NCBI RefSeq assembly: GCF_030177755.1
Contig: NZ_CP126539.1
Location: 2,938,001 to 3,002,000 of the forward strand
Direction of reading: 5' to 3'
Length of the DNA stretch: 64,000 bases
Source of the DNA: Devosia sp. RR2S18
GTDB taxonomy: Bacteria > Pseudomonadota > Alphaproteobacteria > Rhizobiales > Devosiaceae
Shown: piece by piece, positions 10,171 through 28,481 of the stretch
Layout: every line of letters begins with the position of its first letter
Numbering within the stretch: position 1 is the stretch's first letter
Notes under the pieces: generated by a model
What the model saw: the letters and a program-made list of their open reading frames with translations, nothing else
The model's database searches: none
Told to the model about the DNA's origin: nothing
Program-made: the position numbers and the translations under genes

Positions 10171-10244
10171 TGGGGAATAGTTCAATGGTAGAACAGCGGA
10201 CTCTGACTCCGTCGATCTTGGTTCGAATCCAGGTTCCCCAGCCA
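10171..10244 (+). tRNA. tRNA-Gln (anticodon CTG)
   Basis: A cloverleaf can be drawn by hand: acceptor TGGGGAA / TTCCCCA, D-arm GTTC...GAAC, anticodon stem GCGGA / TCCGT around loop CTCTGAC (anticodon CTG, reading CAG), T-loop GTTCGAATC, discriminator G and an encoded CCA. The last 17 bases are repeated exactly at 28465-28481, marking the integration site of the element that follows. Confidence 0.95.
10228..10244 (+). repeat. attL core (17-bp direct repeat)
   Basis: TCCAGGTTCCCCAGCCA, the 3' end of tRNA-Gln including its CCA, identical to 28465-28481. Flanking bases differ on both sides (A vs G before; A vs G after), so the match is exactly 17 bp. Confidence 0.92.
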
Positions 10245-10308
10245 ATCCTCCTTAAGTCGTTGATTTCATTGTAAGTCGCTGCTTTTGCAGTGCTTTCTTG
10301 CGGTCAAC

Positions 10309-10332
10309 TGATCCACTTTGGTGATCCACTTT
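10309..10332 (+). repeat. putative integrase arm-type sites (left)
   Basis: Two direct copies of TGATCCACTTT at 10309-10319 and 10322-10332, 13 bp apart, between attL and the integrase gene. A third copy in the same orientation lies inside the right end at 28384-28394. Nearby is a looser pair TAAGTCGTTG / TAAGTCGCTG (10253-10262, 10272-10281). Repeated short sites beside both attachment cores are the hallmark of integrase arm binding sites. Confidence 0.6.
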
Positions 10333-10392
10333 CAGGCACAATCGCCTGCATCTCGGCACCAGATGGCTATAACTTTGGGGAAGGAGAAATGC

Positions 10393-12036
10393 ATGACGTC
10401 CGGCTCCAATCTCAAGACTCGTGGCCCTGTCTATTACGCTAGGCTCAAGGTGCCTGTTGAACTTCAGCAGCTCATGGGCACCGCTGAGCTAGTTCGTTCG
10501 CTCCGAACTAAAGACCGGCGCACCGCCAACGTGCGAAAGCTCTCTGTGCTATCGGAATGGCACCAAAAGTTTGATGAACTCCGCCGCCGCCGCGATATGA
10601 CTGAGGCGGACTTTGCCAACGCCACATGGGAGCAATACACCACCGAGCTTCAGCACGACGACTTGGCGCGCGCCCTCCCCGGCACCGACAAGGAAACTCC
10701 TAAGGACATTCGCCAGTATCATTTGAAAGCCTTGCGCGACCATCTGGGCCGGGGCGAAACGGTTCTGGTGCATTGGGCTGCGGACAGCTTTATCGACCGT
10801 CGGCAGCTCCTCCTTGAAAAAGGCAGCGCTCAATATCGGGAACTTTGCTTCCGTCTGATGCGCGCCCAGATCGAAGCCTTGCAGCGCGCCAGTGAGCGCG
10901 ATCTTGGCAATTATGCCGGAATGCCATCCGATCCCATTGTTACCCGCCCAACGGCAACGGCAGAAGTCGCTAAGCCAGGAGAACGGCTGATGGACCTGTT
11001 CGAGCGTTATGCAAAGGAAAATCCAAAGCGCGTCAAGGAAGCTGCTCTCATGCAGGCACGGCGCGATATTGGCACGTTCATTGAACTTGTCGGCAGCGAC
11101 TTTCCCGTAACCAGCCTAGACAAGAAGGCAGCGCGTGAATGGAAGGCGCTGCTTATGGAATACCCGGTGAAGGCAGCAGAGATTGGCATCTTTCGAGGCA
11201 TGGGGATCAAGGAGATTGTCGAGGCAAACCGCCTATCAAAGACCCCCAGGCCGGTTATTACCGCTAAGACGGTCAACCGCTACATCGCTGCCTTCAGCGC
11301 CTTCTGCAATTGGCTAGTAGCGCACGACTACCTCTCGGCTAACCCATTCCCCGAAATGTATCTATCGGTGGACAAGACAAAGACGAACGCCCGCCCCTTC
11401 ACTGACGAAGAGCGCAAGGTGTTGTTTGCCTCTCCATTCTTCACCGGCTGCAAGGACGATTCTAAATGGCATGTGCCGGGAGACCATCTGATCCGCGACG
11501 ATCATCGCTATTGGCTCCCTTTCGTGATGATGTATTCAGGCGCACGACCCGGTGAAATTGCCCAGCTCCTAGTGGATGATGTTCGGCAGATGCACGGCGT
11601 TTGGGTGCTGCACCTTACCGATGAAGGTGACGACGAAAAGAGCCTGAAGACAAAGGGATCGTTCCGCGTGGTTCCCGTCCACTCCAAGCTGGTGGAGATG
11701 GGCTTTATCGATCATGTAAATCGCCAGCGGGAAGCTGGTGAGCGGCGCGTCTTCCCCGAAGCTGAACGCAATGCGCGAGGTCATATCGCATCAGCGTTCG
11801 AGAAGAAGTTCGGCACCTATCTCATCAAGCTCGGCCTGAAGCAGGGGCGCGGGATCTCGCTCTACAGCTTCCGTCACGGCTTCTCCGACGCGATGCGGGA
11901 GGCCGGCTTCATGGATGATGAGTTTGGCTTCCTTATGGGACACAGCAAGTTCAGCATGACTGCGCGCTATGGCCAGCTTCCGCAGGGCACCTTGCAGAAG
12001 CGTGTGCAGTTGATTGAATCAGCAACGTATAGATGA
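10393..12036 (+). CDS. int: tyrosine recombinase (site-specific integrase)
   Basis: A 547-residue integrase that would recombine attP with the tRNA-Gln 3' end. The N-terminal part (about 1-200) looks like the DUF6538-type arm/core-binding region of large alphaproteobacterial integrases. The catalytic domain shows Arg384 (YSGARPGEIAQL), a Lys in LKTKGSFRVVPVHSK, Arg494-His495 (YSFRHGF, a departure from the usual HxxR), His517 (MGHSKF) and the nucleophile Tyr526 (TARYG). The start at ATG 10393 has AAGGAG about six bases upstream. No excisionase-like ORF is seen beside it. Confidence 0.93.
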   Translation: MTSGSNLKTRGPVYYARLKVPVELQQLMGTAELVRSLRTKDRRTANVRKLSVLSEWHQKFDELRRRRDMTEADFANATWEQYTTELQHDDLARALPGTDKETPKDIRQYHLKALRDHLGRGETVLVHWAADSFIDRRQLLLEKGSAQYRELCFRLMRAQIEALQRASERDLGNYAGMPSDPIVTRPTATAEVAKPGERLMDLFERYAKENPKRVKEAALMQARRDIGTFIELVGSDFPVTSLDKKAAREWKALLMEYPVKAAEIGIFRGMGIKEIVEANRLSKTPRPVITAKTVNRYIAAFSAFCNWLVAHDYLSANPFPEMYLSVDKTKTNARPFTDEERKVLFASPFFTGCKDDSKWHVPGDHLIRDDHRYWLPFVMMYSGARPGEIAQLLVDDVRQMHGVWVLHLTDEGDDEKSLKTKGSFRVVPVHSKLVEMGFIDHVNRQREAGERRVFPEAERNARGHIASAFEKKFGTYLIKLGLKQGRGISLYSFRHGFSDAMREAGFMDDEFGFLMGHSKFSMTARYGQLPQGTLQKRVQLIESATYR

Positions 12037-12042
12037 TTGGCT

Positions 12043-12447
12043 TCAGCCGACGGCAAGCGCACGAATGCTAACTCCGATGAATATCGGCATGCTTACAGCG
12101 AAAAACGAGCATGTAAACCAAGCAACTACCCACACCGAACCGCGCAGCCACCGGTTGCGTGGAGCGATATTATGCGCCCAAACTGTTGGTAGGAGCGAAG
12201 TCAGGATCATCCACCTAACTGTAACTACAACTGAGAAGAGCAACGCGAGAGCCATGGCTGTGCCGGACATTGCCGTATACCAACCTGGCCCGTCCGAGCG
12301 AAGGACTGCGAATATTCCTGCCCAAGTAGCAGCCCAGATGGTTGGGACAGTAAGGGTATACCTGGCGTAGTCAAACCATGGTTTTTCCTTGTCGATGGCT
12401 TCCCGCGCAGTATCGGGAATAACGGGTCGCGGGATAGCGATCTTCAT
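12043..12447 (-). CDS. membrane protein of unknown function (element cargo)
   Basis: A 134-residue protein with about three hydrophobic helices (residues ~33-52, 58-82, 105-128) after a polar N-terminal ~30 residues containing DKEKPWFDYARYTLT. ATG 12447 has GGAGAG upstream. It lies tail-to-tail with the integrase. No family recognised. Its position next to int is where lysogenic-conversion genes often sit. Confidence 0.6.
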   Translation of the reverse strand: MKIAIPRPVIPDTAREAIDKEKPWFDYARYTLTVPTIWAATWAGIFAVLRSDGPGWYTAMSGTAMALALLFSVVVTVRWMILTSLLPTVWAHNIAPRNRWLRGSVWVVAWFTCSFFAVSMPIFIGVSIRALAVG

Positions 12448-12666
12448 TTGTGGCTCTCCAGCACGAGCTTCAGTATTTGATATCGCAAATTTGCTCGCTG
12501 TTGGGAGGGGTTGTGGTCAGGGAAAAGCAACACATCAAGATTGACGAGCTATCCAGAACAATGGTCCTTCTATTGGTCTAAGCAGTGACCTTGAAAGGCA
12601 ATAACCGTGGAGTATGGCGCTCCTGAACCGGCGATCACTCGCCTGCATAGAGCATGGGGGTAAGGC

Positions 12667-13428: not shown

Positions 13429-13452
13429 GCGCCCCATAGGTCTGGGGCGCTC
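13427..13452. terminator. bidirectional hairpin terminator
   Basis: A perfect 10-bp stem, GAGCGCCCCA / TGGGGCGCTC, with a 6-nt loop. It lies between the convergent genes ending at 13428 (+) and 13469 (-), starting inside the stop codon of the plus-strand gene. A T-rich GTTGGTTG follows on the plus strand. Confidence 0.7.
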
Positions 13453-13468
13453 GTTGGTTGCACCAGTG

Positions 13469-14026
13469 CTAGGTGGCGGTCAACGCGTTAGAAATCGCGA
13501 GAACGTTCGAGTTGAACCGCTGCCGGTCTGCCGGATGTTTCTCGGTGAAAGCCGCCAAGTATTCCAACAACGTCACCAATGAAGCGGGATCAGAAGCCAG
13601 AATGAGGCTCACAAGCTCTGCCGCTGCGGCAACATCAGCATCCGCAAACTCTTCATTGCCGCGCTTTTCCATGTAATCTGCCCTGGCCGACCGATCGCGC
13701 TCGCGCCGTTCCGCCATTGCGCGGTTCACCTCCTCAGCACTTCCATGCTTAGACTGCGCCTGCTTGATGATGCCGGAGATTGCTGAGCTCAGGCCAGGAG
13801 TGTTTCCGTCCTCCAGGAAATTCGCCGGAGTGCGACCATGCAACTCCAGCAGCCGCGCAAGTTCCCGAAGATGCTGCGCGCTGAGGCTGCCATCTTCGAC
13901 CTCCCTCAACAGCTCTTCAGAATCTCTCACCACAAGTTCGAGGTGCCCTTCCTCTGCAAGACCCGTGATGACATGATCGAGCTCATCAAGCACCGCACGT
14001 TCAATTGCAGTCGCGTTGTTCGACAT
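13469..14026 (-). CDS. hypothetical phage-element protein, helical
   Basis: A 185-residue, strongly helical, acidic protein: AVLDELDHVITGLAEEGH at the start, EEVNRAMAERRERDRSARADYMEKRGNEE in the middle and a leucine-rich C-terminal third (ELVSLILASDPASLVTLLEYLAAF). ATG 14026 is preceded by GGAG at eight bases. I chose it over the longer frame, which overlaps the upstream gene. No family recognised. Confidence 0.55.
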   Translation of the reverse strand: MSNNATAIERAVLDELDHVITGLAEEGHLELVVRDSEELLREVEDGSLSAQHLRELARLLELHGRTPANFLEDGNTPGLSSAISGIIKQAQSKHGSAEEVNRAMAERRERDRSARADYMEKRGNEEFADADVAAAAELVSLILASDPASLVTLLEYLAAFTEKHPADRQRFNSNVLAISNALTAT

Positions 14027-14124
14027 GGTATTGTCTCCATAGTGACGGCAGGTGGAAGCGCCTGCCACGCTGCGCCGCCGGGGTGGGTGACGATTGCAAC
14101 CCGATGCCCACCCGGCGGGATTTC

Positions 14125-14640
14125 CTACTTTTCCTTGACGCTCCATTCCGGCAGCGGCCAGCGGACTTGCCGCTCCAGGCGGGAGAGCAAACTGTTCAGC
14201 CGCACTACATCTGCGAGCGCCTGCTTTTTTCGTTGTGGGTCAGAGAGGTCCGCTGCCTGTAGTTCAGCGATGCGCTGGGCAATCTCCAGTCGCTTGTAGC
14301 GATTGATGATGCCTGCCAGTTCTGTGGCGGCATCGAGCAGTTGCCCCACCATGATTTCGGCCCGGCCAATTGATCCCGCGTGGCCCTCGTAAGTGGTTTC
14401 TTCGATTTCGCCAGTGGTGGATTTCGGCCCGCTGTCATCTTCGAACGACGGAGCTTCTAGACCCATGATGTCGAAGTTCATTTCGACATTCATCCAATTC
14501 CCATCTTGGCTGAGATACTCAAAGAAGGGAGTGCGCAAGAAGTCGGCAGTGCTATCCCCCGCCGTAAGTCGCTCTGTCTTCTTGGCTTGCGCCTGCCGTT
14601 CGCGGTAGCGCCGCTGCTTCTCTGCTGGTGAAAGTGCCAT
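14125..14640 (-). CDS. hypothetical phage-element protein with basic N-terminus
   Basis: A 171-residue protein starting MALSPAEKQRRYRERQAQAKK, a basic helix common at the start of small alphaproteobacterial phage proteins. An acidic linker (SFEDDSGPKSTTGEIEE) and helical C-terminal repeats follow. It is headed by a good promoter and an inverted repeat just upstream. Function unknown; DNA binding through the N-terminal helix is only a guess. Confidence 0.55.
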   Translation of the reverse strand: MALSPAEKQRRYRERQAQAKKTERLTAGDSTADFLRTPFFEYLSQDGNWMNVEMNFDIMGLEAPSFEDDSGPKSTTGEIEETTYEGHAGSIGRAEIMVGQLLDAATELAGIINRYKRLEIAQRIAELQAADLSDPQRKKQALADVVRLNSLLSRLERQVRWPLPEWSVKEK

Positions 14641-14659
14641 GCCTAAGCTTCCTCACTTG

Positions 14660-14706: not shown

Positions 14707-14919
14707 TCAGGGCTCGCGCTCGATGATCGCGCGCGCCCACTCCGGCCAAATGTTCAGGTCGCCACCTAGCCGGTCCATGATCATGTATTCCTCCACCCTG
14801 CCGGTCACCGGACAAGGCCTGAAGCCCATGCGAGCACATAGCTCCGCGTCGTGTTGCGCTTGATTTGTAAGGTTCGCCCAAGTCAGGCTGGAGAGGTAGG
14901 TTGGCGCGTCGTCGGTCAT
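14707..14919 (-). CDS. small hypothetical protein
   Basis: A 70-residue protein (from MTDDAPTYLSSL) with a Trp-containing C-terminus (DLNIWPEWARAII). The internal CPVTGRVEEYMIMDRLG stretch looks structured, but I do not recognise it. The longer frame to 14976 is possible. It is isolated between a terminator (15038-15072) and the promoter at 14691. Confidence 0.4.
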   Translation of the reverse strand: MTDDAPTYLSSLTWANLTNQAQHDAELCARMGFRPCPVTGRVEEYMIMDRLGGDLNIWPEWARAIIEREP

Positions 14920-15037
14920 TTGTGCCCCAGGTGCTTTGATGATGCTTTGCTGGCACGGCAAGAATCTGACTGTCAAACGAATTTATGCAGTCTGTTCAGA
15001 GACTTAAGGCGCTAATTCGCTAAATAGCGAAAGAGCT

Positions 15038-15146: not shown

Positions 15147-15653
15147 TCAGTTTTTCTTCGCGGCGCGCGCGTCACGCTTCCGCTTGGCTTCCTTCGCCTT
15201 GAAGGCCACTAGCTCTTCCGGGGTCATGTCTTGCAGCTTCGCCTGCTTAAAGGCTGATTGTTGCTTTCTACGGCGCTCCTGCTTCTCAGGGCCGTCTGGC
15301 ACCCGATACGCTCGAACTGTTCGGCGCTCGGTTTCCATGATGTGCCCGGCATACTCTCCACGACGCTGCGCATTGTATTCATCGCGCCCTTCTCCCTTGC
15401 GCTTCGCATCAACGGCTTCCCAATCCCGCTTGTTTTGGTTGTAGCGAGTGTCATGCTCTTTGATGTGTTCGGAGGCATCGCGCGCGCGGCGCAGCAGTTC
15501 ATCTTGCCGTGGCAACTTTGAGCCTTCTGACGGCTGCTCACCGGATGATGCATCGCCAATATCAGGGGAAATGCTGTCAAGATCGGCAAGAAAACTGATC
15601 ACCGCACCGGAGTGACTGTTCAATTTTGATTGACTATCATCATCTATTGGCAT
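15147..15653 (-). CDS. hypothetical basic helical protein
   Basis: A 168-residue protein with a Ser/Asp-rich N-terminus followed by a long, highly charged helix (RRARDASEHIKEHDTRYNQNKRDWEAV, then RRKQQSAFKQAKLQDMTPEELVAFKAKEAKRKRDARAAKKN, shown only in part). The lysine-rich tail suggests nucleic-acid binding. I start at ATG 15653 (MPIDDDSQ); a TTG at 15686 would add 11 residues. Family unknown. Confidence 0.5.
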   Translation of the reverse strand: MPIDDDSQSKLNSHSGAVISFLADLDSISPDIGDASSGEQPSEGSKLPRQDELLRRARDASEHIKEHDTRYNQNKRDWEAVDAKRKGEGRDEYNAQRRGEYAGHIMETERRTVRAYRVPDGPEKQERRRKQQSAFKQAKLQDMTPEELVAFKAKEAKRKRDARAAKKN

Positions 15654-15683
15654 ACAAATAGGCCTAATGAAGTGGCATTCATT

Positions 15684-15712
15684 CAAGCCCTTAGCGTCTC
15701 GCGCTAGGGGCT
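15684..15712 (+). terminator. terminator-like hairpin, plus-strand orientation
   Basis: A 12-bp stem AAGCCCTTAGCG / CGCTAGGGGCTT with one wobble, followed by TTCTTT on the plus strand only. It lies between two minus-strand genes, so it would stop antisense transcription rather than the operon itself. Confidence 0.4.
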
Positions 15713-15717: not shown

Positions 15718-16143
15718 TTATGAGGCCTGCCGAACGAGCTTGGCGAAGTCTTCCGCTACGTCGCGGGAAAACGCGCGAGCTTCGCCTTCAAACGGCACCG
15801 AAACCTTCACACCGTTCCCGCGCCGCTCCACGACAAAGTTGCTGTCCAGGTCCATCAAATTGATGGGCTGACCCGTGGCGGCACGCTCAATGGCGGCGGC
15901 AAGATCAGCCGCAGATGCTTTGGTGAAAGTAGTCGGGGTATTCTGACCCAAGGTGATACGAACGCCATCAGCAAGGCGCTCAACCTTGATACCGGGCAGA
16001 TCAGCCGGAATGGTGCCACTTTCGATCTCTCTGCGGACAAAGCGAGCGATAGTTTCAGCCATGGAAAGCTTGAGGGTCTCACCAATGGCAACCAATTGTT
16101 GGTGCCGCTCGGTAGGGATAGTGACGGTGGTAATGTTGCGCAT
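15718..16143 (-). CDS. putative ribbon-helix-helix transcriptional regulator
   Basis: A 141-residue protein. Residues 4-40 (TVTIPTERHQQLVAIGETLKLSMAETIARFVRREIES, abridged) fit a beta strand followed by two helices, as in Arc/MetJ-type DNA-binding proteins. The rest is a beta-rich domain of unknown role. It has the best promoter of the element, with a perfect 10-bp inverted repeat across the -10 and a good ribosome-binding site (GAGAAGGG). I infer it is self-regulating and may be the main regulator of the element, since no CI-like gene is present. Confidence 0.55.
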   Translation of the reverse strand: MRNITTVTIPTERHQQLVAIGETLKLSMAETIARFVRREIESGTIPADLPGIKVERLADGVRITLGQNTPTTFTKASAADLAAAIERAATGQPINLMDLDSNFVVERRGNGVKVSVPFEGEARAFSRDVAEDFAKLVRQAS

Positions 16144-16156: not shown

Positions 16157-16197
16157 TAATGCAATTTCGTTATAGAACGCAATTGCATTAGTGTCAA
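16157..16197 (-). promoter_or_regulatory. strong promoter with 10-bp inverted repeat
   Basis: Minus strand: TTGACA (16197-16192), exactly 17 bp, TATAAC (16174-16169). The arms TAATGCAATT (16157-16166) and AATTGCATTA (16181-16190) are perfectly complementary and enclose the -10, a classic repressor operator layout. Confidence 0.7.
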
Positions 16198-16211
16198 ATG
16201 GAGGTATGCGA

Positions 16212-16331
16212 GCGTCCGGCGACAAATTTCGGGGAACGCGTCCGGCGACAAATTTCGCTCGTATAGACCCTATATAGATAGAGATAGTTATAAGCAGATA
16301 ATCTATCCGATGCGAAAATTGTCGCGGACGC
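16212..16331. repeat. 20-bp direct repeat pair plus inverted copy around an AT-rich core
   Basis: GCGTCCGGCGACAAATTTCG occurs at 16212-16231 and 16238-16257 (26-bp period, identical). A third, inverted copy with one mismatch and one deleted base lies at 16313-16331. The 55 bp between the second and third copies are AT-rich (TATATAGATAGAGATAG and similar) in an otherwise GC-rich stretch. This could be a replication origin with iterons, a multi-site operator, or a terminase site. Confidence 0.65.
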
Positions 16332-16579: not shown

Positions 16580-18862
16580 CTACTTGCGCATCACCCCGCC
16601 CGGTCGCATGGCCTGCCTCAGCTCCTGTTGCACCACAAGGCGCATGCTATTTTCAACTTGCTTAGCCATCCGGCGCGACAGGTCTGCGTTCTGCTCTGGC
16701 GTTCCAGCGCTTCCCTCCACCTTGATATTGTTGGTGACGCTCATGCTCACGCCATTGTCGTTGGCACCACGGAGGTTGTCATTCGCAGCGCGAACGGCGG
16801 GACCATCCCCGACAAGCCCACCCGACGAAAAGGCGGCAATACTGCCATCATTGATGGCGCGCAGCAGGTCTAGATGCTTCGCCGTCTGGGAAGCCCTTAC
16901 TACGAACTCACCATCGCTCAGCCGGGCCGGGATGCTGTCACTTGTTGCGGTGCCAGGCCCACGAATAAGCCCACCGGTCGCAGCCTCGACAACACCACCG
17001 TCACTGAAGCCAAAAAGGCCGCCAAGCAGCCCGCCGCCACCAGCGCCGCCCATGAGGTTCGAGAAGAGGCTGTTGATGACGCTATCTAGGGCCATATCAA
17101 GCAACCGGTCGGCAAGGCGGCTGAAGGCGTTTGTTAGTGCAGTGGCCGCATCGGTGCCGTTCATGAGGTCACTGAAGAGCCCGCCCAGGAAGTCTTTCGC
17201 CAAACCCTTCGCACCTTCCATGGCGCTCTGCATCTGATCCATGGCAGCGTTCTGCCGTTCGATCTCAGTCACCAACTCACGGATAGACTGCTTCTGCGCA
17301 TCTGTGGCGCTGGACCCAGCACGGCGAATCTCGGCATCGATGCGCTTCGCGACGTCACCCGTGCCGATCAAGCGCAGTTCGCTCTCCAGCTCGGCAATAA
17401 GCTCTTTCGCGGCATCACGCTCTGCCCTCATAGCCGAAGCACGACCACCACCGCCACCGCCACTACCATTGCTGGCAGGCGTGATCGGATAGTCTGCCAA
17501 CGTCACCGGCTTCACCGGCGTTGGTGCCTTGAAGGTGGAAGAGAACTCCTGCCAAGTCGGTGCCGAACCGACGGCATCGGTCTGCCCAGCGGCGGCATGA
17601 GCAGCAACAGCGGCATCGCGCAGCGCAATGAAGTTGCCGATGACTTCAGCAATCTTTGCCTGAAGGTTGGCGAAGTCGGGGTTGGCTTCCCCCAGCGCAG
17701 TGATGGCCTCCCCTGCCATGTCGGCAGTGCCCTTCCCCTCAAGAAGCTGCTGCACTAGGTCCTGAAAGGCTGCGCCCACTTCACCGAACTGGCCTTTGGT
17801 GTTCTGAGCCAAATTGACCACCGCCTGCTCTGCCTGCGCAAGCTCCAGCTCAGCATCGGTCACGGAAGTGCCCAAGCGGTCGAACTTAGCCGCTAAGCCA
17901 TCCACCATTTCGATGACACGCTGAATGTCCTTCACGTCATTGGCAAAGGTCTGGCTTATCGCATCGCCAAGATCATTAAGCGCGCTGTCAAAGGCGGGCG
18001 AGTTGACCAGATTGGTGATGCTGGTGCCCAGGGTATCAAGGAAGCTGGCGAAGCGCTGCCCAGCCTGTGACGTTTCATTGAACCGACCAGCGGCATCGAT
18101 TAGGACATTCTGAAGGCGCACAAACGAAGCTGAGACGGTCATCTCCGCACCAGCGACCTTGTCCTGCAACACCGCCGAACCGGCTTGAAAGGCGTCAAAG
18201 AACGCCTGCGACGAAACCTTGCCGTCGACAACCAGCGCCCGGAGCTTGGCAACCGATCCACCGGCTTCATCCAGACCGGCAGCAGCGGCCTGCGCAATCG
18301 GCAGTGCGCCCTCAAGGATGCTGTTGAACTCTTCAGCCCGAATGACGCCTGAGCCCATTGCTTGCGATAGCTGGAGCAACGCACCGCTTGCGGACTGCGC
18401 ATCGGTGCCTGCTACGCGCAGCGCCAAGGCTACGTTGTCGGTAAAGCTCAGCATGTCTTCCGTTGAAGCGCCAAGTTCGCCCTGCACCAGCGACACGCGA
18501 GAATAGAGCTGGGCAAGTGCCTCCAGCGGCGCGGCGTTACGTTGCGCAGATGCGAAGAGGCTCTGATAAACCTTGTCCAAGTCTTTTCCCGCCAAGCCCG
18601 CCACCTTCAGCGAGTTGGTGACGCGGGTGCTGGCGTCGATGAGCTGCTGAGCGGCGCGTGCAGAGAATGCACCGGCGAACCCAGCAAGCAGGCCAGTGCC
18701 GATGCCGGAGAAGTGGCGTTCAATGGTGGATGCCGCGCGCTTCGCCCGCTTCTCCATCCCGTCGAAGTTGCGGCCCACGATGCCGCTAGCCTTGCGCATC
18801 TCGCGCTCGAGCTTGTTGATGCGCGCCTCGATAGAGACGGCAAGGATCTGATCGTTACTCAT
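16580..18862 (-). CDS. phage tail tape-measure protein
   Basis: A 760-residue protein. The N-terminal third is the lambda-type tape-measure domain (AAPLEALAQLYSRVSLVQGELGAS, then MGSGVIRAEEFNSILEGALP). A helical middle and a glycine-rich hydrophobic stretch follow, then the typical ending GGLIRGPGTATSDSIPARLSDGEFVVRAS. It would set tail length, yet no tube or baseplate gene follows. ATG 18862 overlaps the terminase stop (ATGA). The tail contains two ANDN motifs. Being last in the operon, it ends next to a hairpin-rich region. Confidence 0.88.
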   Translation of the reverse strand: MSNDQILAVSIEARINKLEREMRKASGIVGRNFDGMEKRAKRAASTIERHFSGIGTGLLAGFAGAFSARAAQQLIDASTRVTNSLKVAGLAGKDLDKVYQSLFASAQRNAAPLEALAQLYSRVSLVQGELGASTEDMLSFTDNVALALRVAGTDAQSASGALLQLSQAMGSGVIRAEEFNSILEGALPIAQAAAAGLDEAGGSVAKLRALVVDGKVSSQAFFDAFQAGSAVLQDKVAGAEMTVSASFVRLQNVLIDAAGRFNETSQAGQRFASFLDTLGTSITNLVNSPAFDSALNDLGDAISQTFANDVKDIQRVIEMVDGLAAKFDRLGTSVTDAELELAQAEQAVVNLAQNTKGQFGEVGAAFQDLVQQLLEGKGTADMAGEAITALGEANPDFANLQAKIAEVIGNFIALRDAAVAAHAAAGQTDAVGSAPTWQEFSSTFKAPTPVKPVTLADYPITPASNGSGGGGGGRASAMRAERDAAKELIAELESELRLIGTGDVAKRIDAEIRRAGSSATDAQKQSIRELVTEIERQNAAMDQMQSAMEGAKGLAKDFLGGLFSDLMNGTDAATALTNAFSRLADRLLDMALDSVINSLFSNLMGGAGGGGLLGGLFGFSDGGVVEAATGGLIRGPGTATSDSIPARLSDGEFVVRASQTAKHLDLLRAINDGSIAAFSSGGLVGDGPAVRAANDNLRGANDNGVSMSVTNNIKVEGSAGTPEQNADLSRRMAKQVENSMRLVVQQELRQAMRPGGVMRK

Positions 18863-21991: not shown

Positions 21992-22281
21992 CAAAACACC
22001 CACTTCCGGTGCGGTGCGATTAGATCGGCATAGCCAAGGGGAAGCTCCTGAGCGCCAACACCGACAAGCACGGCTTCCCGGTTTTCAAACAGGTGCGCGG
22101 CCTTCATGAGAATGGCTTCCTGAAGGTCGGCAGGCGCATCGCCATAGATGACCGGTGTTTCAGCGCCAATGTCCGCAGCAACGGACGCTTCGGCAGCGGC
22201 GATCTTGCGGGTCAGCAACTCATCGTCGGCATTGTCATCGATGATGTTGAGCTGGGCTCTAAGGTCGGTAAGTGCGGTCAC
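21991..22281 (-). CDS. gp6-like head-tail connector / DNA-packaging protein
   Basis: A 96-residue, mostly helical protein: TDLRAQLNIIDDNADDELLTRKIAAAEASV, then PADLQEAILMKAAHLFENREAV and PLGYADLIAPHRKWVF. This is the short HK97 gp6 family, which forms the ring below the portal. It is the first gene of the downstream part of the operon after a 415-bp stretch holding a plus-strand gene. Confidence 0.87.
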   Translation of the reverse strand: MTALTDLRAQLNIIDDNADDELLTRKIAAAEASVAADIGAETPVIYGDAPADLQEAILMKAAHLFENREAVLVGVGAQELPLGYADLIAPHRKWVF

Positions 22282-22428
22282 TGTAAAAACTCTATTTCGG
22301 TGAAATCTTGCGCGACGGGCCCCCCGCCGGTCCCCTCAAGGGCTGGCAAGTTCTCGACCACCCCCGGTGAGCAGCCTTGGGGCTTTGCTCGGCCAGGAGG
22401 CTGGTAACGAAGATTTAACAAATGTGAT

Positions 22429-22696: not shown

Positions 22697-23047
22697 TCAT
22701 GGCTGCACCGGCCTGCGCTCTTCACGCTGCTTGTGCTTGGAGTGGCAGGAGGTGCACAGCGCCTGCCAATTGGTGCGGTCCCAGAACAGCCGGTCATCGC
22801 CCTTGTGCGGAGTGACGTGATCCACCACAGCAGCGGGATTGCCGCACCGGACGCAATGGGGATGGGCTAGCAGGTAGGCAGCCCGCGCCTTCCGCCATTT
22901 ATGGTTGTAGCCACGCTCGCGCGCTGAAGGGCGGCGGCGATCATGGCGGGCTTTGCGGGCGCGATCCGAAGCGATCTGACAAGCGCAGCGCTCACGGGAC
23001 GGCACGATGCTTCCGCAACTGCAAAGGCGTGGGGGTGCGACGGGCAT
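22697..23047 (-). CDS. HNH endonuclease
   Basis: A 116-residue nuclease. The N-terminal zinc cluster is CSCGSIVPSRERCAC. The basic linker is YNHKWRKARAAYLLAHP. The HNH core is CVRCGNPAAVVDHVTPHKGDDRLFWDRTNWQALCTSCHSKH (abridged), with Asp-His, Asn and His in order and paired CxxC zinc ligands. In HK97-like phages such proteins cooperate with terminase at cos cleavage. Here it is about 1.8 kb from terS. Start ATG 23047, overlapping the chaperone stop region by position. Confidence 0.9.
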   Translation of the reverse strand: MPVAPPRLCSCGSIVPSRERCACQIASDRARKARHDRRRPSARERGYNHKWRKARAAYLLAHPHCVRCGNPAAVVDHVTPHKGDDRLFWDRTNWQALCTSCHSKHKQREERRPVQP

Positions 23048-23048
23048 G

Positions 23049-23660
23049 CTACTGCCTCGACTTGAGCGAGTGCAGTGCCTCGCGATTGAATGCGGGGTCA
23101 AATCCCTGCTCTTCAATCTGCTTGAGGCGCTCGGTGGTATAGACTTCTGGTGCGTGGCCGGTCTTTTCGGTCGTGCCAAACACGGCTTTCAGAATGTCCG
23201 TAATGAGGTCGGTGCGTCCGCTCTTGGCGGCGATGATTTCGGCGGGAGTTGCGTTCCATGCTTCCTCAGGTGCCCAGCCCAGCCAGCCGGTGGCGATGCC
23301 GAAGAGCTGCGCAAAGACTTGCTCAGGATCGGCAGGCTTACCGGATGCTGGCTTAGACGGCGTGGGTTCGTCAGGATCGATACCCGCGATAGCCAGGGCG
23401 AATTGTGCAAGCGGTCCGGTGAGCCTGCTCCGGACGTTGCCAAGGCCAGAAGCCGCGATTTCAGCCAGCAACAAGCCGGGCGTGATAGCCGCTTCCCTCA
23501 GCATGTCCGTGATGACGATGGTGTTGAAGTCCTGCACGGCGGCAAGCAGGCCGGATAGCCCATGCCGCCGGACAAGGCGCATGCTGGCGCGGAGGGACGG
23601 GCGAAGCTCATGAGCCTCGCCTGCCAACTCGACAAAGATGCCGTCCGCTCCAAACTTCAT
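23049..23660 (-). CDS. phage tail-assembly chaperone-like protein (two-part)
   Basis: A 203-residue protein. The first ~75 residues (LRPSLRASMRLVRRHGLSGLLAAVQDFNT) resemble the short GTA-type chaperones. The middle is a Pro/Lys linker, and the second part holds FGIATGWLGWAPEEAWNATPAEI, matching the W-G-W-x-P-x-x-x-W-x-x-T pattern of GTA gp10 / Phage_TAC proteins. It may be a natural fusion of the two chaperone halves that other phages make separately. It lies three bases after the capsid gene. Confidence 0.7.
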   Translation of the reverse strand: MKFGADGIFVELAGEAHELRPSLRASMRLVRRHGLSGLLAAVQDFNTIVITDMLREAAITPGLLLAEIAASGLGNVRSRLTGPLAQFALAIAGIDPDEPTPSKPASGKPADPEQVFAQLFGIATGWLGWAPEEAWNATPAEIIAAKSGRTDLITDILKAVFGTTEKTGHAPEVYTTERLKQIEEQGFDPAFNREALHSLKSRQ

Positions 23661-23663
23661 CGC

Positions 23664-25172
23664 TTAGGCGGCGATCTTCAGCTTGGTCAGGGCTTCGCCC
23701 ATCACCACGCGGCCACCAACACGGCGGCGGGCATGGAGCTTGACGATGCCATTGCCAGCGCCGGTGAGATCGTCGCGGATGATTTCGAAACCGGTCCGGT
23801 CTGCGATGGCATAACCGGTTGCGAAATCACCAAAGACGATAGGCGTGGTGCCTGCGGCGGCGTTTGGCATGTCCACTGCCTCATAGACCGGACGGCCAAG
23901 CAGAAGCGGCGGCTGACCGGCAGCGATGCCACGTTCCCAAAGGTAGGAGCCGTCAGTGTCCTTCAGCTTGCGGACGGTCGCCATGGTCTGGCGGTTCATC
24001 AGCCAAGCGCCGTTGGCGGAATAGGCAGTCTTGACCGAGTAGAAGAGGTCAATGAGGTCATCGCCGGTGATGCCAGCAACTTCGAAGTCCGCAACGTCAG
24101 CAGAAGTGAGCACGCCTTCAGCCTGAGTGGTGCCGTTGCCGGTCACAAACCAAGAGGCTTCCTTCTGACCAAAGCGGCGGGCGACGTGGTTGCCCAGGTA
24201 GCTGGTGAGGTCGATCTGAGCATCTTCGAGCAGGATGCGCGTGACCGGCACAATGACCGCCATCTCGAAGGGCTTGAGGTCGATCTGATCAAAGGTCGGC
24301 TCATCTTCAGTGCGGGCAGCGGTTTCGGTGACAGAGACCGGCTCGACTTCATCAACGAGGCGCGGGAGCTGAAGCAGCGGACCGGACATGCTGATGGTCT
24401 GAGCAAGGCCACGGACTGGAGAGAACTCAGCAACCTTCTCCAGAATGGAGGTGGCAACCTGCTCAGGTGCCAGAATGCCGCCGCTCGACGGTGCGGCATA
24501 GCCAAGGGACTTCACTTCGGTGCTGTCACCGGAGCGCACGAAATCGGCAAATGCCTTTCGCTCGTTATCGTTGGCAGCAGCCGGGCTGTTGTCGTTGGCA
24601 GCGGTTGGGCGGTTTGCCTTCGCTTCCATCTTGTCCAGGCGCGCCGTGAGCTTGGTGATGTTGTCGTTTGCCGCCTTCAGTTCGAGGGCGACTTCTTCGG
24701 TAGTCTCGTTTTCCATATGGGTGTGTTCCTGTTCCATGGATTTGACAGAGGTAATCCGCGCGCCGGGGTGCACCGGGCGGCGACAAAGAGAGATTTCCGT
24801 GACAGTGACGGCGGAGAACTTGCGACCGCCGGTCGGCAATGGGTCAAAGGCATCTGCCTTGAAGCCGATGCTGAGGCCATTGATGCGGCGCGCCTTCATC
24901 AGTGCATGCGCGTCGCGGGAAGGCTTCACGCCTTCAATGAAGAGACGGCCTTTGACCTCAAGCCCGGCGTCGGTCTGCTCAGCAGTTTCCCAGACGCCAA
25001 CAACCTTGTTCTGGTCGTGCTCTAGGATGATCGGCAGCGCATCGGGAAAGCTGAAGGCTCCCTTTTCGATCACGTCACCAACGCTATCCGGTAAGCCGAA
25101 CGGCCATGCGATGCCGGAGAGAGTGCCAGCGTCATCGATGCTAACCTCGGCTTTGACTTCTAGCTTCTCCAT
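23664..25172 (-). CDS. fused prohead protease - HK97-type major capsid protein
   Basis: A 502-residue single reading frame. Residues 1-150 are a prohead protease: GTLSGIAWPFGLPDSVGDVIEKGAF, the catalytic His in ILEHDQNKVVGVW and the Ser in RINGLSIGFKA. A coiled-coil/linker region (about 155-215) with three AANDN motifs acts as the scaffold-like delta domain. Residues 215-502 are the HK97-fold capsid (GGILAPEQVATSILEKV, FVTGNGTTQAEGVLT, ending GGRVVMGEALTKLKIAA). Self-cleavage between the parts is expected. The start overlaps the upstream chaperone stop (TGATG). Confidence 0.93.
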   Translation of the reverse strand: MEKLEVKAEVSIDDAGTLSGIAWPFGLPDSVGDVIEKGAFSFPDALPIILEHDQNKVVGVWETAEQTDAGLEVKGRLFIEGVKPSRDAHALMKARRINGLSIGFKADAFDPLPTGGRKFSAVTVTEISLCRRPVHPGARITSVKSMEQEHTHMENETTEEVALELKAANDNITKLTARLDKMEAKANRPTAANDNSPAAANDNERKAFADFVRSGDSTEVKSLGYAAPSSGGILAPEQVATSILEKVAEFSPVRGLAQTISMSGPLLQLPRLVDEVEPVSVTETAARTEDEPTFDQIDLKPFEMAVIVPVTRILLEDAQIDLTSYLGNHVARRFGQKEASWFVTGNGTTQAEGVLTSADVADFEVAGITGDDLIDLFYSVKTAYSANGAWLMNRQTMATVRKLKDTDGSYLWERGIAAGQPPLLLGRPVYEAVDMPNAAAGTTPIVFGDFATGYAIADRTGFEIIRDDLTGAGNGIVKLHARRRVGGRVVMGEALTKLKIAA

Positions 25173-25489
25173 CAGGCAGCAACCTCATCGCTGGGCTGCG
25201 CTGCCGGGCCGGTCCAAAGGTCGGTGAGAATGTCCAGCGCGAGCAAGTGAAGCTCACCAAGCGGGTGCGCTTTCACGTATGCCTGCACTAGGGCCTGAGC
25301 CTCTTCCGGATGAGTGCCACCGCCGATGAGGCCAAGCCGGACGGTGTTGACGATCTCGCCAAAGCCCATGCGGCGGGTGTTCTCGATAATGGCACCGATG
25401 CCCTTGCCGGTGAGGCGTTCAAGTTCTGGAATCAGGTGCGGCGTGAGCGAGAAGTCCCGCTCACGGTCGCCAAAGAATGCTTTATGCAT
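25172..25489 (-). CDS. GTA-family short tail chaperone (Phage_TAC-like)
   Basis: A 105-residue protein: DFSLTPHLIPELERLTGKGIGAI, then EIVNTVRLGLIGGGTHPEEAQALVQAYV. This is the helical pattern of the small gene-transfer-agent-family proteins (formerly DUF3356). It lies between portal and capsid, an unusual place for a tail chaperone. It overlaps both neighbours by one base (TGATG at each end). Confidence 0.75.
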   Translation of the reverse strand: MHKAFFGDRERDFSLTPHLIPELERLTGKGIGAIIENTRRMGFGEIVNTVRLGLIGGGTHPEEAQALVQAYVKAHPLGELHLLALDILTDLWTGPAAQPSDEVAA

Positions 25490-26754
25490 CAGGCGGCGTC
25501 TTTCTCGGTCTCAGGTGGATTGTCGTTGTTCGCCTGCGCCGGTGCAGCGCTGGTCGTGTAAGGGTTTTGCAGCACGTCACCGCCGGGCAGCGGCGGCAAG
25601 TTCCGAGCCGCTCGCACTTCATTGGCGGTCATCACGCCCATGCTGCGGTATTGTGCAAACGAGCGCGCCTGAGCCTCATGGCTCACGGTGAGCAAGTCAT
25701 CAGTTACGAATTCAAAGAAGCGCTTGGTGCGCTCTTCTGAGGTCAGCAGCACGCGGGCATAAGCCCATTCCCAAGCCTCCAGCCAAGGGCGGAGCGTGTA
25801 GGTAAGAAACTGGTGCCCCATCTCTTCGGTGTTTGACCAAGTGCCGCGCGTGAGATCGAAAAGCATGGTCGGTGGCACGCGGAAGGCGCGGGCAATCTCT
25901 TCGGTCTGAAACCGGCGCATCTGCTCAAATTGAGCGTCAGTGCTGGAAAGGCCAGTCTGCTGATAGGTGGTGCCTTCCGGCAGAATGGCGGGCTTGCCGC
26001 TGTTGCTCGGATTGCCGAAGGTGGCATTCCACATATCCGCAATGTTCTTGAGCGCTGCCGGGCTCTTGGCGTCAGTGCTCAAGATGCCGGACGGTCGTGC
26101 GCCATTGCTGAAGAGCTTGGCTGCATGGCGCTCTAGATCGATGGCAAGAGCAATGGCGTTGCGGGCCCGGTGAATAGGTGCGGAGCCGCCGAAGGCCTGA
26201 ACATGAAGCACGTCCCGATAGTCATACCGGACCGCTTTGCGGGCGTTGCCGTGCCGGACCAGGTAGAACGGCTCGGCAGTTGCGGCATCGGTCTTCACCT
26301 CGACGCTGCCGGGCTCCAGACGAATAAACTCTACAACGCGACCATCAACACGGTTCGCCAGGGCAAAACCGCCTTGATCGTGCAAGAGCGCATCTTGGGT
26401 GAGCTGAGTGCGCAGCTCGGCAGCGCTAGTCCAATCGTTGGCCTCATCGTGCGCAAGGCGAAAGGCAGGGTGAGCCGGGTCGGCTTCCTTGCCCTTGGCA
26501 TTACGCACGAAGAGTTTGGCCGGGAGGGTGCCAACCGCTTCAGCGATCAGCTCCACTGCCGAAGAGACAGCAGGCACCTGCATTGCCGTTGCTGGCGTGA
26601 CAGAGATGTTGGAGTGCGTTGGCGCGGCACCAAACAGGCAAGCAGCAAGCGGATCGGTGAGCGTTACCGGCTCAGAAGTGGCTTCTTCAGCCTTTGTTTC
26701 GGTGCGCTCAAAGAGGGCGCGGAAAGCATCGAAGAGGGACAAGGGATCGCTCAA
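25489..26754 (-). CDS. HK97-family phage portal protein
   Basis: A 421-residue portal: VPAVSSAVELIAEAVGTLP near the start, YDYRDVLHVQAFGG, ARNAIALAIDLERHAAKLFSNGARPSGIL, then FQTEEIARAFRVPPTML and a C-terminal crown region with RSMGVMTANEVRAARNLPPLPGG. It forms the dodecameric DNA gate. The start appears to be TTG inside a perfect palindrome, without a clear ribosome-binding site. It is the first gene of the structural operon. Confidence 0.92.
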   Translation of the reverse strand: MSDPLSLFDAFRALFERTETKAEEATSEPVTLTDPLAACLFGAAPTHSNISVTPATAMQVPAVSSAVELIAEAVGTLPAKLFVRNAKGKEADPAHPAFRLAHDEANDWTSAAELRTQLTQDALLHDQGGFALANRVDGRVVEFIRLEPGSVEVKTDAATAEPFYLVRHGNARKAVRYDYRDVLHVQAFGGSAPIHRARNAIALAIDLERHAAKLFSNGARPSGILSTDAKSPAALKNIADMWNATFGNPSNSGKPAILPEGTTYQQTGLSSTDAQFEQMRRFQTEEIARAFRVPPTMLFDLTRGTWSNTEEMGHQFLTYTLRPWLEAWEWAYARVLLTSEERTKRFFEFVTDDLLTVSHEAQARSFAQYRSMGVMTANEVRAARNLPPLPGGDVLQNPYTTSAAPAQANNDNPPETEKDAA

Positions 26755-26800
26755 GTTGTTTACTTGAGGAATATTGTCTCACAAACGTCATAAAAAGCAA
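26750..26800 (-). promoter_or_regulatory. promoter and palindromic operator of the structural operon
   Basis: Minus strand: TTGCTT (26800-26795), 17-bp spacer, ACAATA (26777-26772). The perfect palindrome CTCAAGT-N5-ACTTGAG (26750-26768) covers the expected transcription start and the portal TTG start codon. A bound dimer would block both transcription and access to the start. Confidence 0.5.
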
Positions 26801-26811
26801 AGAAGAAAGGA

Positions 26812-27591
26812 CTATATTCCTTCTTCCGAGCTTTGTGGCTCAACCAAACTGAGGAGCTTCTGACAGGCCACCCGCCCTTCGCGAACCCCCATTTGCCTCA
26901 CTTCAGCTTGCACCGGCATAGAGGCCTTCCTTGAAGCCTCGTGCAAATCCTTCAAATCTATGGAGAGCTGCTTGAGCAATTCGATCCCCCTGATCTCTAT
27001 GGCTTCATTCTCTCCAGCTAAATTCGCTGCCTTTTTAGAGCCAGCGTAAAGGAGCTCAATCCGAGCTGCCAATCGCGGGTTTGAAGAGGGAGACCAATCC
27101 TTCTCAAGAGAGATAATTACCTGCCCACCGTAAAGAACCATGAACCGGCTGCTCATCCTATCGAGAGTGCCGTTTGCTATCTCAAGCAATCTGTCGATTT
27201 GCTCATCAACGCGCCGTTCCTCATCAACCTGCCGCTGCCGCTTAAGTAACTCAGTTTGCTCTGCTATGAAGGCTACGTTCTTACGAGCTTCAGTAACCTG
27301 TTCAGTCGCGACAGCACGCGCTTCAATCAGCTCTTGCCTCTGAGCGGCCAATTCACGGCGCTGCAACAGGACCGCTGCGACCAGCCACAAAAAGGCCAGT
27401 GGGGCAAACGCGCCAGCGAAGAAGTCTCCCATCGCGTTCGGCTCAAGGCAAGTGAGGCGCTCGTGAAGCCACCAGCCTTCGCAATGTGAAGTTTGGCTCA
27501 GAAACCAGAGGCAAATAGCCGCCCAAACAACTGAGATGGCGAGTGCTATCCAGAGCTCAAGGCTTCTCTCATCTTCTTTCTTTTTAGCCAA
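26812..27591 (-). CDS. two-helix membrane protein with coiled coil (candidate exclusion/abortive-infection cargo)
   Basis: A 259-residue protein. TM1 is about residues 12-30. A short loop with CEGWWLHERLTCLEPNAMGD follows, then TM2 (about 55-76, FAGAFAPLAFLWLVAAVLLQ). Next come a long charged coiled coil (about 77-130) and a helical soluble domain. The GDFFAG...APLAFLWLV...LLQRREL pattern resembles the N-terminus of membrane proteins annotated as putative phage abortive-infection proteins (PutAbiC-like), but only in that part. The start is TTG. It overlaps the end of a 37-codon ORF. Confidence 0.6.
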   Translation of the reverse strand: MAKKKEDERSLELWIALAISVVWAAICLWFLSQTSHCEGWWLHERLTCLEPNAMGDFFAGAFAPLAFLWLVAAVLLQRRELAAQRQELIEARAVATEQVTEARKNVAFIAEQTELLKRQRQVDEERRVDEQIDRLLEIANGTLDRMSSRFMVLYGGQVIISLEKDWSPSSNPRLAARIELLYAGSKKAANLAGENEAIEIRGIELLKQLSIDLKDLHEASRKASMPVQAEVRQMGVREGRVACQKLLSLVEPQSSEEGI

Positions 27592-27697
27592 AACGAACGA
27601 TCTCCACCAGCTCAGCTCGCCGCCTTAAGGTTCCGTCCTGCTCTACATCATACCACTTGCCTGGCAACTTTAGCACAGACCACCAAACCACCCGCAT
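27584..27697 (-). CDS. small ORF coupled to the membrane protein gene (low confidence)
   Basis: A 37-codon frame beginning MRVVWWSVLKLPGKWYDVEQ. Its TAA overlaps the TTG start of the next gene (GGCTAA / TTGGCTAAA), a typical coupling arrangement. No good ribosome-binding site is seen and the peptide is not recognised, so it may be a leader peptide or chance. Confidence 0.3.
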   Translation of the reverse strand: MRVVWWSVLKLPGKWYDVEQDGTLRRRAELVEIVRFG

Positions 27698-27782
27698 GAA
27701 CTCGGCGCGCGAGACGTGGTCGGCCTAGAAGGATTGAACTCAGTCCCGCGTGATCGACTAACATCGATTGCGGTGAACGAGA

Positions 27783-28331
27783 TCACCCGATCAGTTCGAT
27801 ACCGGATTGCTGAGAGTCCATTACCGCATGATATGCTTCTCGCAACTGCGACTTTGATGCTATCTGACGTGTCTCAAAGCATTGATCCCACTCAGCGATC
27901 CACTTGAAATCAGGTGACTCCCGGCGGTTGCCGTCGCCGCCCTGAATTGCAGTCTTCAATCGGGCGTCCTCTCCTGCACCGTTGTAAGTTGAGAAGATCA
28001 TCTCCATGAAACTTTGATATTTATCGTAGAAATCTTTGGGAAGAAGATAACGATATATATGTATTTGCCGGTCAAGCGTGCGTTTTTTCGAAATTATGTC
28101 AATGGGCCTACTCTTCTTCCACTCACCGACCCACATAAAATAGCAGTAAATGTCGTTTAGAGCAGGGGATATTTGATCGTATAGCTCGATTCTCTTCTCA
28201 ATTAATTTCCGGCTTCGCCACTGCTTCTGTTCCAGGTCTTTTAATCTTTGATTTAGCTTTACACCGAGCACTACTACAGCAATCGGGGTGAGAGCTGAGA
28301 CGACTAGCTTCAGCACTTCCAGCCACACCAT
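27783..28331 (-). CDS. membrane-anchored protein of unknown function (right-end cargo)
   Basis: A 182-residue protein. One N-terminal membrane helix (about 4-25, VLKLVVSALTPIAVVVLGVKL) is followed by an amphipathic helix and a soluble helical domain (KLIEKRIELYDQISPALNDIYCYFMWVGEW, then IYRYLLPKDFYDKYQSFMEMIFSTYNG, abridged). ATG 28331 has GGAGGG upstream. The gene is visibly more AT-rich than its surroundings, suggesting recent acquisition. It lies just inside attR, a usual place for phage-defence or superinfection-exclusion cargo. Family not identified. Confidence 0.65.
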   Translation of the reverse strand: MVWLEVLKLVVSALTPIAVVVLGVKLNQRLKDLEQKQWRSRKLIEKRIELYDQISPALNDIYCYFMWVGEWKKSRPIDIISKKRTLDRQIHIYRYLLPKDFYDKYQSFMEMIFSTYNGAGEDARLKTAIQGGDGNRRESPDFKWIAEWDQCFETRQIASKSQLREAYHAVMDSQQSGIELIG

Positions 28332-28383
28332 CAGTCCCTCCGAATCCGTGCACTTACCTGCATCTTGCACTGTCCCACACAGG

Positions 28384-28394
28384 TGATCCACTTT
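28384..28394 (+). repeat. putative integrase arm-type site (right)
   Basis: TGATCCACTTT, identical and in the same orientation as the two copies at 10309-10332. It is followed by GG and a degenerate second copy (TCCATCTTT). It lies 71 bp inside attR. Confidence 0.55.
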
Positions 28395-28464
28395 GGTCCA
28401 TCTTTTTGGCTGATGATCTTGCTAACCTGTTGAAAACTATATACTACGTTCGATAAAGGTAGGG

Positions 28465-28481
28465 TCCAGGTTCCCCAGCCA
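28465..28481 (+). repeat. attR core (17-bp direct repeat)
   Basis: TCCAGGTTCCCCAGCCA, identical to the tRNA-Gln 3' end at 10228-10244. It marks the right junction of the element. Upstream of it no tRNA body is present, as expected for an attR. The 28482-28693 stretch beyond holds no gene I can support. Confidence 0.92.

Follow-up and report, generated by a model that had tools for sequence, protein, structure and literature searches.

Phage-inducible islands (PICIs) carry a PICI-type primase or replication gene and an AlpA-like regulator, and the capsid-forming ones (cf-PICIs) have an integrase and flanking attachment (att) repeats. The gene set described for cf-PICIs comprises portal, protease, capsid (MCP), connectors, HNH, TerS and TerL, and they are described as helper-dependent for tails only (PMC10690885). 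Putative tmp genes are shown in a sampling of cf-PICIs (PMC12987554, Extended Data Fig. 10b), among which there may be an alphaproteobacterial member. In 2026, chimeric tails were described for the Vibrio PLEs, in that account the first and so far the one satellite family for which they have been shown: their own tape-measure protein (TMP) and tail-assembly chaperone replace those of the helper, while the tube comes from the helper; deletion of tmp lowered transduction, and the PLE11 product Rta interferes with tail assembly (PMC12987554). PLE also remodels a phage-derived capsid (PMC10945586). The Streptomyces satellites MulchRoom and MiniFlayer have capsid and packaging genes, direct terminal repeats and virulent helpers, and the text devoted to them reports no primase homolog and makes no mention of a TMP (PMC10690885). 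Here, we describe an element of 18,254 bp in a 64,000-nucleotide stretch (the window) of Devosia sp. RR2S18, a genome of 3.97 Mb in a single contig (NZ_CP126539.1, positions 2,938,001 to 3,002,000). We read it, with a probability of roughly 70%, as a capsid-forming satellite with its own head and packaging genes that gauges and caps the tail of a helper phage.

Structural genes and the missing tube

The element is flanked by exact 17-bp repeats of the tRNA-Gln 3′ end (Table 1), which bears out the precise bounds proposed in the initial annotation. This pair is the longest exact match of at least 13 bases between positions 10000-10500 and the remaining window, and the G+C content drops at either end of the element. 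A joined-flank search of 75 genus genomes yielded no empty integration site; the tRNA part was matched in 72 of them and the right flank, among the places listed, in the own genome only. The minus-strand order from the portal gene is TAC_11 chaperone, protease-capsid fusion, 203-aa protein, HNH, adaptor, neck, terminator, head closure protein (Hc1), TerS, TerL and TMP. Pfam and PHROGs families support the integrase, portal, protease-capsid, connectors, both terminase subunits and TMP that had been named from the letters of the DNA.

The same scans also agree with the earlier claim that tube, tip, lysis and replication genes are absent, and the family scans of the window open reading frames (ORFs) showed neither a lysis nor a primase family. 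For the tube, the absence was measured against nine loci with related TMPs from eight Devosia genomes (L122, L123, L125, L127, L129, L131, L132, L133 and L135). The tube of Mesorhizobium phage vB_MseS-P1 (P1) as a query finds a tube in seven of these nine prophage loci, and a hidden Markov model (HMM) seeded with the tubes of P1 and vB_LagS-V1 (V1) recruits the same seven; none was found in L132 and L135, the latter of which has an interrupted TMP. With a cut-off of E < 1, this HMM matched none of 42 satellite stretches, including this element (the stretches are not all distinct elements), and a TMP model run in the same way matched 30 of the 42, the weakest at E 0.04. Distal-tail, hub, peptidase and megatron profiles were also without a match in the 42 stretches, with the distal-tail and hub profiles made from five rows each. 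A distal-tail search of the own genome, run without a control, returned no match.

Two tail-related genes called for a closer assignment. The 105-aa gene next to the portal bears one PHROG label and a Pfam description that would make it the tail tube; it belongs to the TAC_11/RcGTA-gp10 chaperone family, which phage P1 has beside a separate gene annotated as tail tube. The 203-aa protein is probably a second tail-assembly chaperone, judged from its TAC_6 stretch. Its interpretation as a fused gp10 and gp10.1 received no support from profile comparison, and it is not a replacement of the tube either, because one relative (G141) encodes a tube alongside both the TAC_11 and the 203-aa gene.

A 140-aa ORF at 22.28-22.70 kb was rejected as a gene and is read as conserved DNA, since only its last 32-36 codons match two relatives (L080 and L028), with low synonymous change; a third (L081) matches over 75 codons without this low-synonymous sign. 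The interval of 22.3-22.7 kb thus holds no relative-supported gene in this copy, and a conserved cos-like DNA block instead. In relatives, the adjoining HNH protein measures about 116-118 aa and starts where the preceding gene ends; the equivalent position here is near 23050.

Relatives, tail types and the modular tape measure

TerL relatives (E ≤ 1e-30) occur in 22 of 136 family genomes, some of them distant and of phage type at about 30% identity, and the nearest relatives of the element are in Devosia. Fourteen loci come from named genomes, namely Devosia (3), Martelella (3, in two species), Cypionkella (2) and Jiella, Methylopila, Bradyrhizobium, Cereibacter, an Azospirillum metagenome-assembled genome and a Rhodobacteraceae one (1 each), and 16 further loci from viral contigs. 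Among deposited phages, 1857 records match TerL, none at 60% identity or above. To compare relatives with the window, we predicted their genes by means of a codon model that had been trained on matched genes; the order of head, neck, terminase and TMP genes is constant across them.

We sorted 33 loci into three sets by their tail genes. Type 0 (nine loci, e.g., L034, L035, L036 and L071) has head and terminase genes only, with the reservation that L070 has a 1337-aa ORF after TerL, maybe another kind of TMP, and L054 an unclassified 931-aa ORF further on. Type A (16 loci, like the window) has neck, terminator, Hc1 and TMP without a tube, mostly with the TAC_11 and 203-aa genes; L075, which has no gp10 or 203-aa match, was placed here only by its TMP without a tube, and in L030 and L044 the locus runs into a contig end. 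The TMPs of this type span 619 to 916 aa, counted from approximate starts. Type B (eight loci) has a phrog_158 tube between HNH and adaptor as well as a TMP, and a phrog_313 chaperone in those tested. A four-sequence profile of the type-B tube matches L033 and its viral-contig copy, L047, L055, L066, L067, L068, L069, L076 and, weakly, L112, and no type-A locus. The TMP gene follows directly after TerL in 15 of 16 type-A and seven of eight type-B loci, and in both misses, the contig ends within or just past TerL; in L074, a phrog_14 “minor tail protein” match comes directly after the TMP. A gene of about 128 aa after the capsid of relatives was considered as a tube and discarded: it is phrog_5707, a family of unknown function that head-only relatives have too. 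This protein, of 126-144 aa, is conserved after the capsid in L033, L034, L035, L051, L066 and L075, with none among the window proteins scanned.

The same tRNA-Gln(CTG) adjoins this element, L028, L030, L031, L032, L033 and G116; tRNA-Gln(TTG) adjoins L037 and L041, and other relatives sit at tRNA genes for Arg, Val, Ser and Cys, among others. In an att test of 12 loci and eight regions, seven and four, respectively, had a repeat of at least 15 bp; the doubtful 15-bp repeat of G045 lies within the tRNA and was excluded from the lengths. Repeat-bounded TMP carriers measure 18.5, 18.3, 17.6, 17.1, 17.1, 18.0 and 17.7 kb, with an eighth (G116) of 15.9 kb, and head-only relatives 15.5 and 15.9 kb. 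Repeat-bounded elements that share these head genes and measure 15-19 kb recur in Devosia, Methylopila, Cypionkella and other Alphaproteobacteria. The initial annotation had expected a satellite to show a conserved set of the same size, always without a tube: the size holds, the “always” does not, one branch having a tube and two contigs also a distal-tail gene. In G073 (C1:2002835-2053430), a full tRNA-Gln lies 50 kb from a partial copy beside a satellite integrase, with a further TMP match between them, and a phage and a satellite may be in tandem in one tRNA site there. In L029 and L063 (D. rhodophyticola), another TerL, of phage type, comes directly after the satellite TerL and the TMP match is only short, possibly by recombination with a prophage.

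The cos-like block lies upstream of the adaptor gene and reads GGGGTGG, five bases, AACTT, 13 bases, GGGACCGGCG, then CGCAAGA and AAATAGAG; it would act as the cos site. Scored on 21 fixed bases with up to three mismatches allowed, it is present in 22 of the 33 sorted loci (12/16 of type A, 6/8 of type B and 4/9 of type 0, where it lies upstream of the portal) and in none of 16 prophage and phage stretches, whose best scores are 5-8 mismatches. Scanning viral contigs for nothing but the block returned 111 stretches; we read 79 of them, including 76 that were new. The contigs of these 79 measure 14-21.5 kb in 52 cases (median 17.6 kb), less than 14 kb in 21, 21.5-25 kb in two and more than 25 kb in four. 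TerL is present in 54 of the 79, and 44 of these 54 have a TMP match. The TAC_11 or 203-aa protein was found in 16 block stretches and the type-B tube in 51, with both in two (L152 and L201, with near-identical scores). None of the 79 was matched by the profiles for hub, peptidase, megatron or the prophage-type tube, weak absences in loci that are often partial, and the distal-tail profile matched two. Among seven of these contigs examined whole, G136 and G140 have a distal-tail gene after the TMP (42% and 37% identical to that of P1) without a hub or megatron match, and in G137 a satellite stands beside a separate prophage with a P1-like tube.

The TMP itself is modular. Its C-terminal 200 residues, expected to meet the tail tip, are 44-72% identical to those of ten type-A satellites (Devosia, Methylopila, Jiella and viral contigs), 27-34% to those of L037, L041 and L051, and 30-39% over 64-192 residues to prophages; L075 has no match. 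Strong matches (at least 64% over about 200 residues) occur in seven of the 136 family genomes, every one with a satellite, and weaker ones in G055 (a type-B satellite), in G121 (41% over 155 aa) and in a stray piece of the own genome. The latter (G000:C1:3755024-3755194) covers 56 residues at 59% identity within a 236-aa frame. Of 8000 candidates scored in the protein database, 523 match the C-terminus; among the 120 matches listed, most of those with a precomputed domain have PF20155 or PF10145 and few have PF06791 or PF02557, which indicates that one C-terminus sits on different TMP bodies. Two Jiella TMPs (P0053 and P0061) combine the satellite-type C-terminus with an M15 peptidase domain (PF02557). 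Against the TMP of the window, those of prophages reach 55% identity over 635 residues, versus 24-35% for portal, capsid and TerL, where compared.

In a midpoint-rooted TerL tree, the satellites form one group apart from the phages, with support of 95/87 with L075 and 99/95 without this long branch, for which a long-branch warning applies (the row labelled as prophage pro_L027 belongs to the satellite in genome G038). Tail types are interspersed across the tree, forcing at least three, two and two changes for types A, B and 0, respectively. G039 and G045 each have a satellite-type TerL locus and a prophage with a related TMP; the satellite of G045 is the outlier L075. Ratios of nonsynonymous to synonymous change (dN/dS; Nei-Gojobori, window versus eight relatives) are 0.12-0.21 for the TMP (over only 303-449 codons in five of the eight), 0.11-0.31 for gp10, 0.22-0.35 for the 203-aa gene, 0.14-0.37 for the neck, 0.18-0.56 for the terminator and 0.05-0.41 for TerL, rough values because synonymous change is often near saturation. 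The structural genes are under purifying selection.

There is, in our judgement, an even chance that these observations belong together, with a single alphaproteobacterial satellite lineage (one TerL group and mostly one cos-like block) forming a ladder of tail independence with chimeric rulers, each fitting a different helper class. Its rungs would be a head only; a head with neck, chaperones and ruler, as in this element; the same with a tube; and finally with a distal-tail protein. Tail modules would be swapped on a steady head, the satellite-type TMP C-terminus being set on interchangeable phage bodies. The literature searches made here found no description of this element family or of its shared block, its modular ruler and its graded series of tail sets.

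Variable genes and control region

Most of the remaining ORFs differ between relatives, while the structural block is constant. Nine of them (Table 1) were without any Pfam or PHROGs match to a tube, tip, lysis or replication family; seven (all except o179 and o89) were also scanned against NCBIfam, without an informative family, and one of the nine matches phrog_9267 (function unknown). The scans of these nine ORFs gave no family match to a primase or AlpA-like regulator, and PADLOC found nothing in eight window ORFs.

Table 1. Features of the element and its integration site, with positions in the window.
Feature	Position	Strand	Basis and remarks
tRNA-Gln(CTG)	10171-10244		tRNA call
Attachment repeat inside tRNA-Gln 3′ end	10228..10244	+	exact 17-bp repeat; last 17 bases of the tRNA
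Tyrosine integrase	10318..12036	+	DUF6538, Phage_integrase, phrog_1; start possibly near 10393
o134, 134 aa	12043..12447	-	no family; hydrophobic by eye
o253, 253 aa	12667..13428	+	no family; 48% identical homolog in L043
o225	13469..14146	-	function unknown; homolog in L043
o171	14125..14640	-	recurs in L028, L030, L031, L043, L074
o89, small	14707..14976	-	recurs in L031, L043, L065, L072, L074
o179	15147..15686	-	no relative among the loci compared
o141	15718..16143	-	first gene past TMP; proposed ribbon-helix-helix regulator, read from sequence
Control region	16157..16325		15-nt inverted repeat, two 20-nt direct repeats, inverted near-copy
TMP, 760 aa	16580..18862	-	TMP_3 body; C-terminal 190-200 aa common to satellites
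TerL, terminase large subunit	18859..20478	-	family matches
TerS, terminase small subunit	20453..20848	-	Terminase_4
Head closure protein (Hc1)	20845..21210	-	Phage_HCP
Tail terminator, gp17-like	21159..21569	-	Tail_completion_gp17, phrog_176
Tail completion/neck protein, HK97 gp10-like	21566..22003	-	49% identical to phage vB_LagS-V1
Head-tail adaptor (Ad1)	21991..22281	-	Phage_connect_1
Conserved cos-like block, core GACCGGCGGGGGG	22288..22367	-	putative function
HNH endonuclease	22697..23179	-	profile match
203-aa protein, TAC_6 stretch, proposed second tail-assembly chaperone	23049..23660	-	Pfam E 4.8e-5, slightly above cut-off; phrog_7493
Prohead protease-major capsid fusion	23664..25172	-	Peptidase_S78 and Phage_capsid
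Tail-assembly chaperone, 105 aa, TAC_11/RcGTA-gp10 family	25172..25489	-	Pfam E 1.7e-16; alignment
Portal protein	25489..26754	-	Phage_portal
o259, cargo	26812..27591	-	start hydrophobic by eye; L074 has a 41% homolog, placed between its integrase and portal
o202, cargo	27783..28391	-	no informative family
Attachment repeat, distal copy	28465..28481	+	exact 17-bp match to tRNA-Gln end

A counterpart of o141 is next or next but one after the TMP in seven Devosia-type relatives (L028, L031, L042, L043, L065, L073 and L074); its 44 listed homologs include none that is informatively named. The 15-nt inverted repeat sits just upstream of o141, and inverted repeats are placed likewise in L028, L031, L065 and L073; these and the other repeats of the control region were counted without a chance control. 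The predicted protein would be a DNA-binding regulator controlling the element, and the repeats of the control region could be its operator and an origin. Promoter and terminator scans did not rise above chance level. Cargo varies: the type-A satellite L042 has an RT-TIR_XII defence gene (970-2526) between an integrase-like ORF and the portal, and AIPR and TIR domains were also seen among the unknown ORFs of relatives.

The satellite reading, its alternatives and known systems

On the satellite reading, the element, triggered by helper infection or induction, would make its own head and package its own DNA by means of the portal, protease-capsid, HNH, TerS/TerL and cos-like block. A helper siphovirus would supply tube subunits and a tip complex, which would assemble around the chaperone-loaded TMP of the satellite, the satellite terminator would cap the tube at the length set by that TMP, and the neck would join the capped tail to the satellite head. 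The family of relatives as a whole probably completes its particles with parts from other phages.

Several observations weigh against this. No helper phage was identified, and the own genome has no second complete portal of the element's portal family, other portal families being outside that search. The strong C-terminus matches being in satellites only, no prophage in the 136 family genomes offers a close match to this end of the ruler. Tube-stealing is not family-wide, given that a tube gene is present in many relatives, and 11 of the 33 sorted loci lack the block at up to three mismatches, with best scores likewise of 5-8. For the second chaperone, the Pfam hit is weak, as is the profile match to gp10 (probability 20%). 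Finally, a very divergent tube may be hidden among the unknown ORFs.

We take the alternatives in descending order of probability. That the element is a self-sufficient minimal phage, with such a divergent tube and a tip encoded past the TMP or before the portal, is unlikely: nine ORFs without an informative family leave room for it and another branch of relatives does encode a tube, but most of these ORFs change between relatives while the structural block stays, o141 looks like a DNA-binding protein with an inverted repeat at its start, and the window ORFs gave no match to a lysis or primase family.

The TMP and chaperones could instead be a decoy that mainly jams helper tail assembly, the particles using complete helper tails with the helper's ruler. 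PLE11 Rta provides a precedent for such interference (PMC12987554), and the TMP C-terminus is unlike those of prophage TMPs. We regard this as rather improbable, given that terminator and neck, which both serve assembly, are kept too, and that transduction was reduced by tmp deletion in PLE (PMC12987554).

The initial annotation had left the choice between a satellite and a decayed siphophage, of which the first has gained and the second lost ground. A siphoprophage on its way out, its tube, tip, lysis and replication genes lost, would explain that most free-phage genes are not recognised in the element, and the own genome does have another degraded phage-like locus with a split portal resembling that of a gene transfer agent (GTA). 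We nevertheless hold it to be quite improbable: several genera contain bounded elements, 15-19 kb long, in which the gene order is the same, block-bearing viral contigs cluster at 14-21.5 kb, the late genes are open and under purifying selection, and TerL groups apart from the full-tailed Devosia phages. The same backbone with a full tail and lysis genes, which the initial annotation had named as refuting its claim, was not encountered in the seven contigs of the 79 examined whole as far as the tail is concerned, lysis genes being outside that check.

A tail donated by the host's RcGTA-like cluster is highly improbable: the genome does contain a stretch with such a gene order (L061) and the chaperone of the element belongs to the GTA-gp10 family, but the candidate GTA ruler, named by position, has about 181 aa against 760 aa of the satellite TMP, the GTA-like portal is split, and the element's TMP and neck have matches in the siphophages V1 and P1. 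Located beyond the window, L061 (G000:C1:3108000-3126000) is presumably a GTA cluster, to go by gene order and sizes; its portal matches come in two pieces in different frames, and the portal looks split.

RcGTA is a host gene cluster without an integrase and with its own tail tube; our satellite candidate has an integrase and att repeats, and no tube was found in it. It shares a TAC_11-type chaperone with phages P1 and V1 and the Devosia prophages, whose TMPs are 39-55% identical to its own over 315-712 residues and whose necks, where found, are 27-49% identical, versus 22-35% for portals, capsids and TerLs. P1 is annotated with a tube, distal tail, hub and megatron and V1 with a major tail protein; none of these was recognised in the element, which differs from a complete siphophage in tube, distal tail, hub and lysis. 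MulchRoom and MiniFlayer have capsid and packaging genes, as this element does, with no primase homolog reported for them and none recognised here; its TMP is a gene not mentioned for them, and their direct terminal repeats and virulent helpers are further differences. With cf-PICIs, it shares the capsid and packaging set, integrase and att repeats; no primase was recognised in it, and where cf-PICIs are described as depending on the helper for their tails, it has a TMP, a TAC_11 chaperone, a terminator and a neck.

The claim that the element is of a type not matching known ones was too strong, since PLEs use their own TMP and chaperone and some cf-PICIs have a putative tmp (PMC12987554). Like the Vibrio PLE (PLE11), it has a satellite TMP and chaperone, known here from the genes; PLE, in a Vibrio host, uses a phage capsid and adds a baseplate hub protein, while this element, with its nearest relatives in Devosia, has its own head, terminase and neck, and no recognised hub. 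If our reading is true, chimeric tails would extend to a large family with its own head, in which a natural series (no tail genes, ruler, added tube, added distal tail) would show what a satellite must keep to control a helper tail, and the satellite-type C-terminus of the TMP would give a directly testable lead on the acceptance or rejection of tail tips by a ruler. The chimeric-tail mechanism has its precedent of 2026 in the PLEs, to which the alphaproteobacterial element would add a head of its own.

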